Under the pieces are notes generated by a model. The model was given only the letters and a program-made list of their open reading frames with translations, was not told where the DNA came from and did no database searches. From a virus: DNA of 53,671 nt. Where the stretch lies: positions 1 through 53,671 of the IMG/VR virus record IMGVR_UViG_3300045911_000047. One strand, 5' to 3'. This document shows, piece after piece, positions 11,484 through 16,343 of the stretch; within the stretch, counting starts at the first letter, position 1, and each line of letters starts with the position of its first letter. The translations under genes were made by a program, and so were the position numbers.

Positions 11484-11676
11484 AGTATCAAAAAAAATGC
11501 GAGAGTGTCTCGAAGACGAAGAATGGAAGAAACAGGCTCTAGAGTATGTAATGTTTGCTTCTCAATTGTTCCCAGAAGACACTTTTAAGAAAGATGAGAA
11601 TATAGAGCTATTCCTATCTGGAATATTATTCTTGTACGCATTATCGCAGTTTGAAGATTCTAAGGAGATTAATTAA
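11458..11676 (+). CDS. Hypothetical protein (72 aa)
   Basis: A 72-residue acidic protein starting MTIWLTPTEV. ATG 11458 is chosen over an upstream TTG because GGAGG lies just before it (11450-11454), though the spacing is short. The product is helical, with a hydrophobic segment ELFLSGILFLYALSQF near the C-terminus that could be a buried helix or a membrane helix. It overlaps the HTH gene by 26 bases and shares one base (TAATG) with the next gene. No family recognised. Confidence 0.6.
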   Translation: MTIWLTPTEVSKKMRECLEDEEWKKQALEYVMFASQLFPEDTFKKDENIELFLSGILFLYALSQFEDSKEIN

Positions 11677-12662
11677 TGAAATTTGCAATTGATTACCTAG
11701 GTGGCGCCCGCTATGGAGATATAATCCTAAAAGCTCACCCAAAGGATTTTGGAGCAGGGTTTTTTTCTTTTGTAGATGGTTTTGGGTCTTCCTTGCCTGT
11801 TGCAAGAAAACTTGCATCTACCAATCGCTGTCCCTTCATTCGCTTTCATCTTTGGTGGCGTGATAATCATAACTTTAACGGCTATGAAGATGAGATCATA
11901 AACCAAGCCGAAGACGTAAGAAAGTTAGTTAAAGATTTCCCTAAGATTCAATTTGAAGTTTCCCCAGCTTGTGAGCATCTTTGGCGGAAGGAGAAAGCAG
12001 ACTTAGTTTGTGCTAATGTAGAGAAAATATTTAAAGGGCTTTCTAATGTAGAAGTAATCAATACCCCATATCTTGGCGGCGGTGGACAATTATCAAGCAA
12101 ATATAAAAACGAAGTACATAGAGCTGATAATCAAGTCCCTCGTCAAGGGCGCTTCAATTTCTCTTATGATGGGAGATCCGCTGTGGACTCTCCTGTCTCT
12201 AAAGACAAAAGAAGATGGCAGAAGGCTGAGTGGTTTTTCTTCTGGACATATCAGCTAAATCTAAAGCGAAATGAGAAAGATCGTACCCCAAGAAAAGATA
12301 GAAAAGCTAAGCCTACTAAAGAGCTTATTGAGTCTTTAGCTTACCTAGCTACAGAGAAAGGAAGAACTTTTATAGAAAAAGGATGGTTATTAAAAAGTCA
12401 TGCTGAGCAAATAGGGGATACTCCTACTGCTCGAGAAAATAAAGTATTAGTGCTTGCTCCAATTAAAGCTAGTAAATGTGAGCTTATTACTGAAGATGGC
12501 AAAGTTGTAGCAAGGGCTCCTTATTACGGGTCATTTGAAAAACTACATAGATACTACTTTGAAGTATGGGGCTATAAGCTTCCTAAAAGAGTTAGAGTAG
12601 TAATCAATGGGAAAAGTTATGGGATTGTAAATCCGGGGTTTCGAGAAGGATATTTTAGGTGA
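11676..12662 (+). CDS. Hypothetical protein, possibly TIM-barrel-like (328 aa)
   Basis: A 328-residue protein that I do not recognise with confidence. The N-terminal two thirds show alternating strands and helices with conserved-looking strand ends (CPFIRFHLWWRD, IQFEVSPACEH, VEVINTPYLGGG), reminiscent of a TIM-barrel hydrolase. The last 90 residues look like a small beta domain (KVLVLAPIKASKC, RVVINGKSYGIVNPG). There is no signal peptide. It sits between small regulators and the cytosine methyltransferase, sharing a TAATG junction upstream; its stop overlaps the GTG start of the methyltransferase. An enzymatic role is a guess. Confidence 0.75.
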   Translation: MKFAIDYLGGARYGDIILKAHPKDFGAGFFSFVDGFGSSLPVARKLASTNRCPFIRFHLWWRDNHNFNGYEDEIINQAEDVRKLVKDFPKIQFEVSPACEHLWRKEKADLVCANVEKIFKGLSNVEVINTPYLGGGGQLSSKYKNEVHRADNQVPRQGRFNFSYDGRSAVDSPVSKDKRRWQKAEWFFFWTYQLNLKRNEKDRTPRKDRKAKPTKELIESLAYLATEKGRTFIEKGWLLKSHAEQIGDTPTARENKVLVLAPIKASKCELITEDGKVVARAPYYGSFEKLHRYYFEVWGYKLPKRVRVVINGKSYGIVNPGFREGYFR

Positions 12663-13606
12663 ATGGCTTGGATCTATTTTCGGGAATTGGAGGACTCACA
12701 CTTGCTCTTAAAGAATGGGTCACCCCAATCGCCTATTGCGAATCGGATGAGTACGCGCAAAAAGTTCTCCTTAAACAAATGGTTTCAGGAAACTTACCCG
12801 TTGCCCCAATCTGGGATGACGTTAGAACGCTCAGAGAGCTACCCTGCCCAATTGACATCATCTATGGAGGATTTCCATGTCAGGATATCTCGGTTGCAGG
12901 CAAGCGTCTCGGCTTGGAAGGAGAGCGAAGCGGATTATTTTTCGAGGTCGTGCGGTTGGTCAAAGCGTTCAAGCCCACGTTCCTATTCCTTGAAAATGTC
13001 CCAAACATCAGAACAAAAGGATTGGATAGAGTTCTCCAAGAACTTACCTCCGCAGGGTATGATTGTAGATGGTGTATGCTATCCGCTAAGGAAATTGGAG
13101 CGAATCACAAAAGAAATAGATGGTGGCTTTTGGGCTACTCCAAATACTATGGATTGGATGCCCTTAAGGAGCATGGAAGCCTTAAAGAGACAATTCAATA
13201 CTACAAGGAAGGGGAGAACGAAACCTTCAAATCTCAGAGAACAAGTACACCCCCAGTGTTGGCCCAAGAACCTAATGCTTCCAACGCCAGATGCAAGTCC
13301 AAGAGGGCCAACAAAATACTACGACCCAAAACACAAAAGCTACATATACAGGACATTGCAGAGCTTTGTTCGGATGTATCCAACCCCTTGTGCAAGAGAT
13401 TGGAAGGACAATGGTCAGAGCAAGGCAGAATTACAGAGGAACACAAAGACTTTATGCACCCATGCTGGTGGACTGTTGAACCCGACGTGGGTCGAGTGGC
13501 TAATGGGGTACCCTCTAGGGTGGACAGAATAAGAGCATTAGGAAATGCAGTGGTACCATTGCAGGCGAGGACAGCTTTCATGGAACTAATGGGAATAAAA
13601 GGATGA
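12659..13606 (+). CDS. DNA (cytosine-5) methyltransferase
   Basis: A 315-residue C5 methyltransferase that transfers a methyl group from AdoMet to cytosine in a specific DNA sequence. Motif I LDLFSGIGGLT at 4-14, motif IV GFPCQ at 71-75 with catalytic C74, motif VI ENVP at 112-115, motif VIII HKRNR at 150-154 and motif X-like RIRALGNAVVP near 290 are all present. The target-recognition region between VIII and X is short. The start is GTG overlapping the previous stop (GTGA). No cognate restriction enzyme is nearby, so it probably protects phage DNA. Almost its whole length is also open in a second plus-strand frame (12663-13532) that looks like a real protein. Confidence 0.93.
   Translation: MNGLDLFSGIGGLTLALKEWVTPIAYCESDEYAQKVLLKQMVSGNLPVAPIWDDVRTLRELPCPIDIIYGGFPCQDISVAGKRLGLEGERSGLFFEVVRLVKAFKPTFLFLENVPNIRTKGLDRVLQELTSAGYDCRWCMLSAKEIGANHKRNRWWLLGYSKYYGLDALKEHGSLKETIQYYKEGENETFKSQRTSTPPVLAQEPNASNARCKSKRANKILRPKTQKLHIQDIAELCSDVSNPLCKRLEGQWSEQGRITEEHKDFMHPCWWTVEPDVGRVANGVPSRVDRIRALGNAVVPLQARTAFMELMGIKG
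12663..13532 (+). CDS. Overlapping-frame protein inside the cytosine methyltransferase gene (289 aa)
   Basis: A second open frame of 289 codons lies in the +1 frame of the methyltransferase, from ATG 12663 (directly after the TGA of the preceding gene) to TAA at 13530-13532. Its product reads like a protein: EDFHVRIS, SSPRSYSLKMSQTS, GMIVDGVCYPL, FWATPNTMDW, LPTPDAS, YPTPCARDWKDNG and the ending LNPTWVEWLMGYPLGWTE. I recall these PTPxARDWK and LNPxxVEWLMGxPxGWT motifs from phage and bacterial proteins near C5 methyltransferases; that is memory, not a search. A stop-free run of this length in another frame of AT-rich DNA is very unlikely by chance. It could be true dual coding or a by-product of codon constraint. 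Confidence 0.6.
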   Translation: MAWIYFRELEDSHLLLKNGSPQSPIANRMSTRKKFSLNKWFQETYPLPQSGMTLERSESYPAQLTSSMEDFHVRISRLQASVSAWKESEADYFSRSCGWSKRSSPRSYSLKMSQTSEQKDWIEFSKNLPPQGMIVDGVCYPLRKLERITKEIDGGFWATPNTMDWMPLRSMEALKRQFNTTRKGRTKPSNLREQVHPQCWPKNLMLPTPDASPRGPTKYYDPKHKSYIYRTLQSFVRMYPTPCARDWKDNGQSKAELQRNTKTLCTHAGGLLNPTWVEWLMGYPLGWTE

Positions 13607-14025
13607 AAAAGAATCTAAAAAGAATCGCTAAAGAGCTCTTTCATTCTCAAGATATAGGCGGGCATAAAGGTCTTTTAGGAAGTCTCGCTCAACTTAGAGG
13701 AGATTGCACAAATATTATAGGGGAAGCTTCAAGAATTTATGGAGATGTTTCAAATCTAAGAGGGGATGTTTCGAATCTCGTAGGAGATGTCTCAGGGATT
13801 TCTGGGGGTATATTCATAAGAGGTTATGTCTCAGGACTTCGAGGAGAAGTCTCTAGACTTCGAGGTTCTGTTTCTTGGCTTACTGGTGATGTCTCAGGGC
13901 TTTCTGGAGAAGCTACAGGCGTTATTGGAGATGCTTCTGGGGTCATTGGAAACCTAGATGACTGTGAGCTTACTAAGGAAGAGAGAGCTAAAGGGGTTCT
14001 ACTAGAAGATTTAATAGGAGATTAA
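13603..14025 (+). CDS. Heptapeptide-repeat (GDVSxLx) protein, beta-solenoid-like
   Basis: A 140-residue protein whose middle (about 25-115) is built of 7-residue repeats of the type G-D-V-S-x-L-x (for example GDVSNLR, GDVSNLV, GDVSGIS, GEVSRLR, GSVSWLT, GDVSGLS). Such regular repeats with small and aliphatic positions suggest a short solenoid. The N-terminus is basic; the C-terminus LDDCELTKEERAKGVLLEDLIGD is charged and appears separately conserved. I recall similar repeats in other phage proteins of unknown function. It starts at the methyltransferase stop (ATGA overlap). Its last 33 bases are duplicated at 15210-15242. Confidence 0.8.
   Translation: MKKNLKRIAKELFHSQDIGGHKGLLGSLAQLRGDCTNIIGEASRIYGDVSNLRGDVSNLVGDVSGISGGIFIRGYVSGLRGEVSRLRGSVSWLTGDVSGLSGEATGVIGDASGVIGNLDDCELTKEERAKGVLLEDLIGD
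13984..14016. repeat. Cassette repeat R1, copy 1 (3' end of heptapeptide-repeat gene)
   Basis: These 33 bases recur at 15210-15242 with one mismatch (14001/15227), and their right half (TAGAAGATTTAATA) recurs again at 14136-14149. In the two later copies the TTA inside the repeat is the stop codon of a leftward methyltransferase gene. The repeat marks one boundary of a duplicated cassette. Confidence 0.85.
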
Positions 14026-14135: not shown

Positions 14136-14151
14136 TAGAAGATTTAATAAG
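14136..14151. repeat. Cassette repeat R1, shortened copy 2
   Basis: TAGAAGATTTAATAAG here is identical to 15229-15244. Upstream bases (AGCTAGGGCTAAT) look like a shortened form of the AGCTAAAGGGGTTCT found in the two longer copies. The TTA at 14144-14146 is the stop codon of the first leftward methyltransferase. Confidence 0.8.
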
Positions 14152-15145
14152 GTGAATGTTTCTTTGCACGTATTAAGATACGGGTATATTTTTCAACACC
14201 ATTTATGAGTGGTCTTCCATGTGGAGTACCCTTATATCTTATACCTATATTTTCTTCGCCTGTATTCATAATTCCAAGTAACTCAAACTGTTCGGGATTG
14301 TATTTATTGATGAAGGTGATAGGTACGCCCATAACGCCATCATAATCTATTGGAATATCTGTGGTCTTAGAGACTTCTATTGCATCATAATTATCATATC
14401 TTGGGTACTTTTCAGGGATATATTTTTTATGAAGTATTAAATAATTCTGATAGCGTGTTTTGTAATCTAGGTTCGTAAACCATCTTACACCATTAACCGA
14501 AACATACTTATTGCCTTCATTATCAGTTCGATAGTTACTAGTCTTTAGTTGATAATCATTTGATATTCTAAATTCTAAAGTGCCGCTACGAATACTTGCA
14601 CCAAGCCACATTTTGTTTTCTTTAATATATTTGAAAACTTCTTTACATATTATTGCGTTTTGATTCCCTAAGATTAAAAACTTTTTCTCATATCTCATTA
14701 GTTGAGCAACATATTCCCTAAATAACGAGAATGGAGGATTAGTTACTACAATATCAGCTTGTTTTAATAACTCTATGCACTCTTCACTTCTAAAATCTCC
14801 ATCACCGTGAAGAAAGGTAGAAACGTTTTTATTATGTCTTAATAGCTCTATAACATCATCTTTAATAGGTTCTAATACTTCATTTATTTCAACCCTCTTT
14901 GGGGTTGAATGATAGTTTGTAACTATAAGTTTCTTTAGTCCTAGTTTGTTAAAATTTAAAGTGAAGTACTTAAAGAAATTACTCTCATACGGATCATCGC
15001 AGTTACAATAAACTATTTTGTCATAAAACTGGTCTTCATAGTGTGCTAACTCTTTCTCAATATCACTTAATTGAGTATAAAACTCATCTTTCTTGGCTTT
15101 CCTTGCATTGACTAATTTTCTATTTGATAGTTTTGTCATAGCCAT
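14144..15145 (-). CDS. Adenine-specific DNA methyltransferase, EcoRI-methylase family
   Basis: A 333-residue N6-adenine methyltransferase. DEFYTQ at 20-25, CNCDDP at 47-52, LGLKKLIVTNY, GDGDFRS at 114-120 and the catalytic NPPF at 136-139 match the M.EcoRI-type family. No restriction partner is nearby, and GAATTC sites remain in the genome (for example 1191, 1215, 1386, 53338, 53413), so if it has EcoRI-like specificity it would protect them; the specificity is not proven. It runs against its neighbours, has no clear Shine-Dalgarno site, and is bounded by repeats shared with the next methyltransferase, so it was probably acquired as a cassette. Confidence 0.9.
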   Translation of the reverse strand: MAMTKLSNRKLVNARKAKKDEFYTQLSDIEKELAHYEDQFYDKIVYCNCDDPYESNFFKYFTLNFNKLGLKKLIVTNYHSTPKRVEINEVLEPIKDDVIELLRHNKNVSTFLHGDGDFRSEECIELLKQADIVVTNPPFSLFREYVAQLMRYEKKFLILGNQNAIICKEVFKYIKENKMWLGASIRSGTLEFRISNDYQLKTSNYRTDNEGNKYVSVNGVRWFTNLDYKTRYQNYLILHKKYIPEKYPRYDNYDAIEVSKTTDIPIDYDGVMGVPITFINKYNPEQFELLGIMNTGEENIGIRYKGTPHGRPLINGVEKYTRILIRAKKHSPY

Positions 15146-15169
15146 TTTTATATTAAATTATCTTATAAA
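15145..15169. repeat. Cassette repeat R2, copy 1 (leader of first methyltransferase)
   Basis: Twenty-five bases that recur at 16349-16373 with a single mismatch. Read on the minus strand they form the AT-rich leader just upstream of each methyltransferase start and contain TATAA-like stretches (TATAAGATAAT, TATAAAA) that could serve as a -10 element. They mark the other end of the duplicated cassette. Confidence 0.8.
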
Positions 15170-15180
15170 CGGAGATAGCT

Positions 15181-15206
15181 AAATGCCAGTAGACAATATT
15201 GATGAA
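15181..15206. repeat. Cassette repeat R3, copy 1 (5' end of phospholipase-like gene)
   Basis: Twenty-six bases starting AAATGCCAGTAGACAA recur at 16371-16396 with one mismatch (15197/16387). The second copy is the genuine start of the phospholipase A2-like gene. Confidence 0.85.
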
Positions 15207-15248
15207 GAAAGAGCTAAAGGGGTTCTCCTAGAAGATTTAATAAGATGA
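15183..15248 (+). pseudogene. Chimeric remnant joining two neighbouring genes
   Basis: A 21-codon frame whose first 8 codons (MPVDNIDE) copy the start of the phospholipase-like gene at 16373 and whose remaining codons (ERAKGVLLEDLI) copy the end of the heptapeptide-repeat gene. This is exactly the junction expected if a unit running from the 3' end of the repeat-protein gene to the 5' end of the phospholipase gene was duplicated in tandem. It keeps a GGAG ribosome site, so it may still be translated, but it is most simply a recombination scar. Confidence 0.75.
15210..15242. repeat. Cassette repeat R1, copy 3
   Basis: Matches 13984-14016 at 32 of 33 positions. The TTA at 15237-15239 is the stop codon of the second leftward methyltransferase, the same position within the repeat as in copy 2. 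Confidence 0.85.
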
Positions 15249-16343
15249 TTTCTTAAGAAGCCAAAGCAATTCTTTAACTTTTATATCTCTATTGCGTAAG
15301 TTTCTTGAACCACGATAGGTATTATAATCCTGCTCCATTAGTTCCCATGTTCCGTATTTGGAAAGGATTTTCTTAAATACCTCAATCGGTATAATACCTT
15401 CATCATTGTAAGATATAACTATAAACCTTGCTTGTGTGTCAGCTAAAAGCTGATCCATGGCTTCCTGAGCTTCCTTTCGTTTGTTGTACGCAGATCTATT
15501 CCATTCTTTTGCTATCCCACTTATGCCATCTTGTATCTCTACAGGCTTACCGCTGTTGATAATATTGAGCATAAAGTAATTAGATCCATATGGGTGCTGA
15601 TTATAGGGCGGATCGTAATAGGCTAGATCGAATACAGGTAATTTTGGATCTTTTACTAATTGGTTTATATCTTGTTTATAGATATAAACTGGACATTCGA
15701 AATCAGACAATTCTGGCATCTCAAGCTCAATTTCTTTTTTAATTCGCTCCAAAGCATTTTCGCCACGCCCACCAAAATGTCCAACACCATTTCGTTTGTG
15801 AAATCCCTTGAAGACTCCAGATGTATTAGTGTGAATTGATGCTTTTACTAAGAGTGAAGCAAGGCAAAAATGTCTGTACTCTTTCGGCACTTTTTCAATC
15901 AATCTACGAAGATTATCTATAATTTTTGCGTTAATGTTCGTATAAAAAACTCTTTCTCCCGGCTGAACATTATTATCGTCTTTTGGAGCATAATTTGTCT
16001 CGATAAACCCCGGGGCGTCTGTTCCTTTTAGTTTGTTCTTATTAAGCCAGTCTATGTATTTCTTTAATTGCTCTAGGTTCACTTCAGATTTATTTGCAAG
16101 ATAAGCACGATTCAAGGTCTCTGCATAATCCTTTAGGTCGTTTACATGAAGCTCTTTAGCAAATATCTTTAGAAGCCTAGAAACCGCACCGCTTCCTGCA
16201 AAGCCGTCAAACACAATTAGTTTTTCCTTATTAAGATTTTCCCTGACCCTAAGGAAACCTTTGTATAGAAAGGGAATTAGTTTCCGTTTATTTCCAATAT
16301 AGGTGATTAACTGTGAGGTTAGGTTAATATTATATTTTATCAT
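15237..16343 (-). CDS. DNA adenine methyltransferase, D12/Dam class
   Basis: A 368-residue N6-adenine methyltransferase. The order is motif X-like YIGNKRKL at 15-22, AdoMet-binding GFAGSG at 47-52, and catalytic DPPY at 244-247 followed by YGSNYF. This alpha-class arrangement matches D12 methyltransferases; the region between holds the target recognition part. It is not related in sequence to the EcoRI-type enzyme next to it, yet both end on the same TTA inside repeat R1 and both begin at repeat R2. There is no restriction gene and no obvious ribosome site. Likely role: protecting phage DNA from host restriction. Confidence 0.92.
   Translation of the reverse strand: MIKYNINLTSQLITYIGNKRKLIPFLYKGFLRVRENLNKEKLIVFDGFAGSGAVSRLLKIFAKELHVNDLKDYAETLNRAYLANKSEVNLEQLKKYIDWLNKNKLKGTDAPGFIETNYAPKDDNNVQPGERVFYTNINAKIIDNLRRLIEKVPKEYRHFCLASLLVKASIHTNTSGVFKGFHKRNGVGHFGGRGENALERIKKEIELEMPELSDFECPVYIYKQDINQLVKDPKLPVFDLAYYDPPYNQHPYGSNYFMLNIINSGKPVEIQDGISGIAKEWNRSAYNKRKEAQEAMDQLLADTQARFIVISYNDEGIIPIEVFKKILSKYGTWELMEQDYNTYRGSRNLRNRDIKVKELLWLLKKSSY

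Follow-up and report, generated by a model that had tools for sequence, protein, structure and literature searches.

A Viral C5-Cytosine DNA Methyltransferase Gene with a Probable Recognition Subunit Nested in Its +1 Frame

The C5-cytosine DNA methyltransferase gene of IMG/VR virus record IMGVR_UViG_3300045911_000047 carries a second long open reading frame (ORF) in its +1 frame. In this study, we analyzed the whole record of 53,671 bases, referred to here as the window. The methyltransferase frame encodes a catalytic polypeptide, designated alpha, and the nested frame encodes a second polypeptide, designated beta; about 870 bases of DNA are common to both. We found that beta is far beyond chance and is not a shadow frame. 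It is very likely that this one stretch of DNA encodes a two-polypeptide C5-cytosine methyltransferase whose recognition subunit is encoded within the gene for its catalytic subunit. An earlier reading made from the letters alone (the sequence-only reading) had pointed out the overlap, and both frames lie at the positions that it gave (Table 1), with the motifs that it named present in beta. As it had also noted, the end of beta, LNPTWVEWLMGYPLGWTE (13476-13529), uses the bases of alpha VEPDVGRVANGVPSRVDR (13475-13528).

Over alpha, the +1 frame stays open for 289 codons. When the alpha protein and its codon set were kept and synonymous codons were permuted 20,000 times, the +1 run averaged 75 codons with a maximum of 213, and none of the 20,000 permutations matched the open length of beta. 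Drawing the codons by window usage gave a mean run of 54 codons and a maximum of 175, with about 19 stops expected. For 19 further long genes in the window, the longest +1 runs were 26-117 codons.

Relatives of beta were then collected. A tblastn search with beta matched 59 phage records, one of them over the full length with 29% identity (Acinetobacter phage ABMM1, E 1e-14). A beta-type frame was positioned +1 to the methyltransferase in 91 of 91 loci (10 phage, 80 IMG/VR, and the window) and in 78 of the 80 GTDB genome loci. Both of these sets had been selected by beta, and the search was repeated with alpha alone, yielding 73 analyzable loci. The beta frame was without a stop from motif VIII to the motif X block in 72 of these 73, whereas the third frame had a mean of 5.6 stops over the same interval and was open in none. 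The beta endings varied in the alpha-selected set (LNPQFVEWLMG, LSPLFVELLMG, LNPPFVEEIMG, and others), pointing to conservation of a protein motif rather than of the DNA alone. The IMG/VR and GTDB loci were found partly via WVEWLMG, so the invariance of WVEWLMG there is biased; the motif was looser in the tblastn phage set and in the alpha-selected set. Both frames are annotated in some Paenibacillus phage records, such as Diva ("g49 internal gene"). The arrangement is common among phages, and most records leave beta unannotated.

We examined which of the two frames is under selection by a codon-position test. In this arrangement, the third position of beta codons is the first position of alpha codons, and the alpha wobble position is the second position of beta codons. 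The test used 24 disjoint pairs with 80-99.5% identity, aligned on alpha to avoid favoring beta. Between motif VIII and motifs IX/X, substitutions numbered 805 at alpha position 1 (the beta wobble), 313 at position 2, and 250 at position 3 (the alpha wobble), and position 1 exceeded position 3 in all 24 pairs. The flanks occupied by alpha alone showed the normal order for positions 1, 2, and 3 (93/45/255 and 31/19/106), and the overlapped part over motifs I-VIII was intermediate (260/131/459). A beta-based alignment agreed with this result. Since substitutions are concentrated at the beta wobble, the methyltransferase frame is the passenger in the center of the gene. When the window was compared with 121 relatives, amino-acid identity in the central region was 0.24 for alpha and 0.39 for beta.

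Beta was also present at loci where the alpha frame is closed, namely eight viral and two bacterial loci with 9-25 alpha-frame stops. The alpha frame closes beyond motif VIII in L074 (170 codons) and L077 (188 codons), where beta continues and motif X forms a third ORF. The viral loci L173-L178 have the same beta and separate motif X ORF, the three shortest (L176-L178) being cut before the alpha part. All eight viral loci contain 12-25 alpha-frame stops within the beta ORF. The motif X ORF of L173-L178 is mostly close behind the beta stop and is preceded by GAGGAG in several cases. In the bacterial loci L097 (a Spirochaetia metagenome-assembled genome) and L147 (Paraburkholderia adhaesiva), which have 9-11 alpha-frame stops, alpha extends only to motif VIII, and the target-recognition domain (TRD), motif IX, and motif X share the one beta frame. 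In single comparisons with the beta of the window, the non-overlapped parts matched with E 9e-30 (L077), 2e-16 (L147), and 3e-12 (L097). Of the two alternatives in the sequence-only reading, extended dual coding that yields a partner for the methyltransferase is supported by homologues outside the overlap (L074, L077, L173-L178, L097, and L147), by purifying selection in the second frame that is independent of the methyltransferase frame and stronger in the central region, and by a beta frame that stays open in relatives. The other alternative, a family of over-predicted shadow frames, is refuted by the observations that the reading had itself named as decisive.

The eight viral loci carry three ORFs, corresponding to motifs I-VIII, the TRD plus motif IX, and a motif X polypeptide of about 75 amino acids, and a three-chain enzyme is possible there. 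In an E. coli prophage copy annotated as a pseudogene with an "internal stop" (L216:1863-1869), alpha and beta stops occur within 7 bases.

Alpha has the motifs of a C5-cytosine methyltransferase (PF00145), with motifs I, IV (PCQ), VI (ENV), VIII, and X, and lacks a recognition domain and motif IX on the same chain. FSGIGG is located at residues 7-12, PCQ at 73-75, ENV at 112-114, and AxHxRxR at 148-154, and R287, R290, G295, and N296 are invariant in the motif X block. The alignment of alpha with M.HhaI, M.HaeIII, and bacterial enzymes of the canonical type did not extend past motif VIII: the match to M.HhaI reached only M.HhaI residue 171, and the HHalign alignment with canonical C5 methyltransferases ended at alpha residue 163. 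The AlphaFold2 (AF2) model of alpha matched M.HaeIII/M.HhaI over about 168 columns. Its residues 1-170 were confident, with a predicted local distance difference test score (pLDDT) mostly above 90, as was the C-terminal helical block, and most of residues 172-282 had pLDDT below 50. Across 71 alphas, no segment scored higher with a canonical motif IX matrix than the 99% level of shuffles. When the same matrix was applied to 74 betas, the segment corresponding to beta residues 272-288 ranked top in 68.

Beta matched phrog_1008, labeled "DNA methyltransferase" (E 8e-18), as did all 75 of the beta proteins tested (best E 6e-72); this is a library label only, which describes neither function nor nesting. 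No match to beta was found in Pfam or NCBIfam, the beta profile had no match in a PDB sequence search, and a 25-column motif IX profile gave only chance matches to RapA in the PDB. In HHalign comparisons with canonical C5 methyltransferases, the best position of beta was exactly motif IX, with LNPTWVEWLMGYPLGWT placed on LTPRECARLMGFPDTF. Closer counterparts were found in actinophages. In Gordonia phage Upyo, gp54 contains motifs I-VIII, and gp53 contains LLPTPxAxD modules, LNPKLSEWMMGLPDGHV, and then motif X, whereas Hamulus gp68, JoeyJr gp71, and Jabberwocky gp4 hold all parts on one chain. The beta profile matched Upyo gp53 with E 8e-11 and an actinophage C5 methyltransferase alignment with E 1.6e-9 (probability 96-97%), and the single-chain enzymes have the beta-like region in the same frame as the flanking motifs VIII and X. 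These matches identify beta as the recognition region of a C5 methyltransferase together with motif IX, encoded +1 to its catalytic half. The entire recognition domain appears to reside in the second frame, whose recognition region in the window contains three (W/L/Y)(P/A)TP modules, at beta residues 157, 206, and 239.

The catalytic parts of JoeyJr gp71 and Hamulus gp68 (L224 and L225) are near-identical, and their number of LLPTPxAxD modules differs. This sequence difference suggests that module gain or loss may alter specificity. The C5 methyltransferase of Propionibacterium phage B22 (L228:76-2175) has an apparent intein-like insert at the catalytic PCQ motif.

The start sites of the two frames were also compared among loci. 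A spacing of 4 nucleotides separates the two starts, mostly as RTGAATG, in 32 of 145 loci including the window, and this twin start was found in 22 of the 73 alpha-selected loci. In about half of the twin-start loci, again including the window, the TGA of the twin start doubles as the stop of an upstream ORF. In the window this is TGA 12660-12662, between the two starts, and the upstream ORF overlaps the alpha start by 4 nucleotides. It had no family match in library scans of the window proteins, and by its position it is a candidate for translational coupling. The AGAAGG upstream lies 9 nucleotides from the GTG and 13 from the ATG. At the other loci, the beta start is inside alpha, and a Shine-Dalgarno match of at least 5 nucleotides preceded 62% of 81 such starts, compared with 5% of 2,027 control ATGs in the same genes (p 4e-27).

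We propose that alpha would form the catalytic large domain, with S-adenosylmethionine binding, the PCQ cysteine, motifs I-VIII, a weakly constrained linker, and the motif X block. Beta would supply the small domain absent from alpha, that is, a target-recognition region with PTPxARD modules and motif IX. Together, alpha and beta would form one enzyme in which beta chooses the methylated sequence. Both chains are probably made from one message, with ribosomes choosing between the starts in GTGAATG, and termination of the upstream ORF on the intervening TGA may possibly assist this choice.

Several points weigh against this proposal. We infer the translation of beta, the assembly of the chains, the methylation activity, the target sequence, and the sharing of the starts. 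The relatives of the window have only about 60% nucleotide identity, and saturation blurs the codon-position signal for the window itself. The first 60 or so residues of beta overlie the strongly constrained alpha motifs I-IV, where constraint on beta is only suggestive. The AF2 model of beta alone was poor (pLDDT 58, predicted template modeling score 0.30), and Foldseek found no fold match with this low-confidence model. When beta was compared by HHalign with canonical enzymes, among them E. coli Dcm, its alignment to motif IX of the Dcm group was weak and not significant (E 0.17), and the motif IX assignment depends on the actinophage bridge and on position.

Beta might instead be a real protein that arose by overprinting and regulates or inhibits the methyltransferase or host restriction. 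Overprinted phage genes often encode regulators, and beta is always beside or within a C5 methyltransferase gene. However, the beta profile matches the in-frame recognition region and motif IX of single-chain C5 methyltransferases, exactly the part missing from alpha, and the beta frame of L097, L147, and Upyo gp53 bears motif X, which fits an enzyme half and not an inhibitor. A regulatory role is thus quite unlikely. The sequence-only reading had suggested a methyltransferase cofactor or inhibitor as the partner protein; a partner is supported, and beta is best read as a structural subunit for target recognition with motif IX and not as an inhibitor. It is very unlikely that a programmed frameshift from alpha into the beta frame yields one fused chain (motifs I-VIII plus TRD-IX), either beside or in place of two chains. 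Alpha and beta would indeed give the canonical order of motifs I-VIII, TRD, and IX in this way, and single-chain relatives exist, but the fused product would be without motif X, which remains in the alpha frame. Moreover, beta has its own start with a Shine-Dalgarno site or twin start, and beta ORFs extend far upstream of the required junction. A shadow frame, open and similar only through conservation of alpha, would explain why beta is mostly found within alpha and why the alpha frame dominates the substitution pattern over motifs I-VIII. Yet alpha is the less conserved frame between motifs VIII and IX/X, the openness of beta far exceeds chance, and beta persists where alpha is closed. The loci with beta outside alpha refute this explanation, and its probability is close to nil. 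The nested two-polypeptide methyltransferase is the explanation that we favor.

Table 1. Positions of the alpha and beta frames, their parts, and the upstream ORF in the window.
Feature	Position	Strand	Basis
Alpha, C5-cytosine methyltransferase catalytic polypeptide, 315 amino acids, GTG start	12659..13606	+	PF00145, E 4.8e-42
Beta, 289-amino-acid polypeptide, +1 frame, nested in alpha; ATG 12663, TAA 13532	12663..13532	+	
Twin start GTGAATG; alpha GTG 12659, beta ATG 12663	12659..12665	+	sequence
AGAAGG, possible Shine-Dalgarno site common to both starts	12644..12649	+	inferred from sequence only
Alpha catalytic domain, residues 1-170, motifs I to VIII	12659..13168	+	invariant columns; AF2
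Alpha linker, residues 172-270; fastest-changing, low-confidence, passenger over the beta recognition region	13172..13468	+	pLDDT; codon-position test; identity
Alpha motif X block, residues 287-311, RVDRIRALGNAVVP...	13517..13591	+	invariant columns; AF2 helices
Beta target-recognition region, beta residues 131-268	13053..13466	+	conserved in relatives; kept where alpha frame closed
Beta motif IX, beta residues 272-288, LNPTWVEWLMGYPLGWT	13476..13526	+	HHalign; motif matrix; actinophage equivalents
Upstream ORF, 328 amino acids; TGA stop overlaps alpha start and abuts beta start	11676..12662	+	

Downstream, from the alpha stop, positions 13603-14025 (+) encode a 140-amino-acid protein of repeated GDVS-containing units (NLRGDVSNLVGDVSG...), which had no significant family match in the library scans. 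Two adenine methyltransferases, one EcoRI-type (PF13651, E 1e-126) and one of the D12 class (PF02086), are encoded at 14144-16343 (-). They adjoin the cytosine enzyme, placing three DNA methyltransferases within about 4 kb.

It is quite conceivable, at somewhat less than even chances, that the window represents an overlooked large class of phage and bacterial C5 methyltransferases. In this class, the recognition subunit would lie in the +1 frame with the annotated frame as passenger, twin or internal starts would balance the subunits, and the number of PTPxARD modules would set the target; the relatives would span one chain, two chains (AquI-like), three chains, and full nesting. Under the nested reading, many phage entries named "DNA cytosine methyltransferase" would describe half an enzyme, the recognition half having been missed by annotation. 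A clone of alpha with recoded codons would lose beta and be inactive as an enzyme, and any specificity predicted from the alpha frame would rely on meaningless sequence. The locus is also a clear example of extended dual coding on one strand, where codon-position statistics separate the roles of the two frames, and the un-nested and single-chain relatives offer natural controls for the evolution of nesting.

No earlier report of this nesting as a widespread phage class was found in the literature searched, which omits most older papers. A second protein in another frame of a phage methylase gene is known from the ShiLan domain, a hidden HNH endonuclease (PMC11855218). The ShiLan element is a homing insertion, whereas beta is no insertion and is homologous to methyltransferase parts. 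A hidden HNH element of this kind was rejected for the window, as beta had no HNH match. The single-chain actinophage enzymes (Hamulus gp68, JoeyJr gp71, and Jabberwocky gp4) share the catalytic domain with alpha, and with beta they share the LLPTPxAxD recognition modules and a motif IX of the form EWMMGxPxGWV. They differ from the window in having one frame, motif X after motif IX, and no overlap. In M.AquI, alpha holds motifs I-VIII and part of the variable region, and beta holds the rest with motifs IX-X. The window is similar in that the catalytic and recognition/IX parts are on two chains. The M.AquI order was found in L097, L147, and Gordonia phage Upyo gp54/gp53. The window departs from it, with motif X remaining part of alpha and nearly all of beta lying within alpha.

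M.EcoHK31I (Lee, Kam and Shaw 1995, cited in PMC3404938) and M.EaeI are both two-polypeptide C5 methyltransferases. The second chain of M.EcoHK31I is reportedly encoded out of frame within the gene for its first chain, and the second chain of the window is placed likewise. In the published description of M.EcoHK31I, the larger chain has motifs I-VIII and X, motif IX is on the second chain, and the predicted recognition domain is placed in the larger chain (PMC3404938). The window agrees with this description in having motifs I-VIII and X without IX on the larger chain and IX on the second. It differs in that the recognition region is on beta, the corresponding alpha residues 172-270 being an unconstrained passenger. 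It also differs in the beta start lying 4 nucleotides after that of alpha and in its phage setting, the two systems being compared by description only. The window enzyme would work like M.EcoHK31I, but with the recognition region on the second chain as well.
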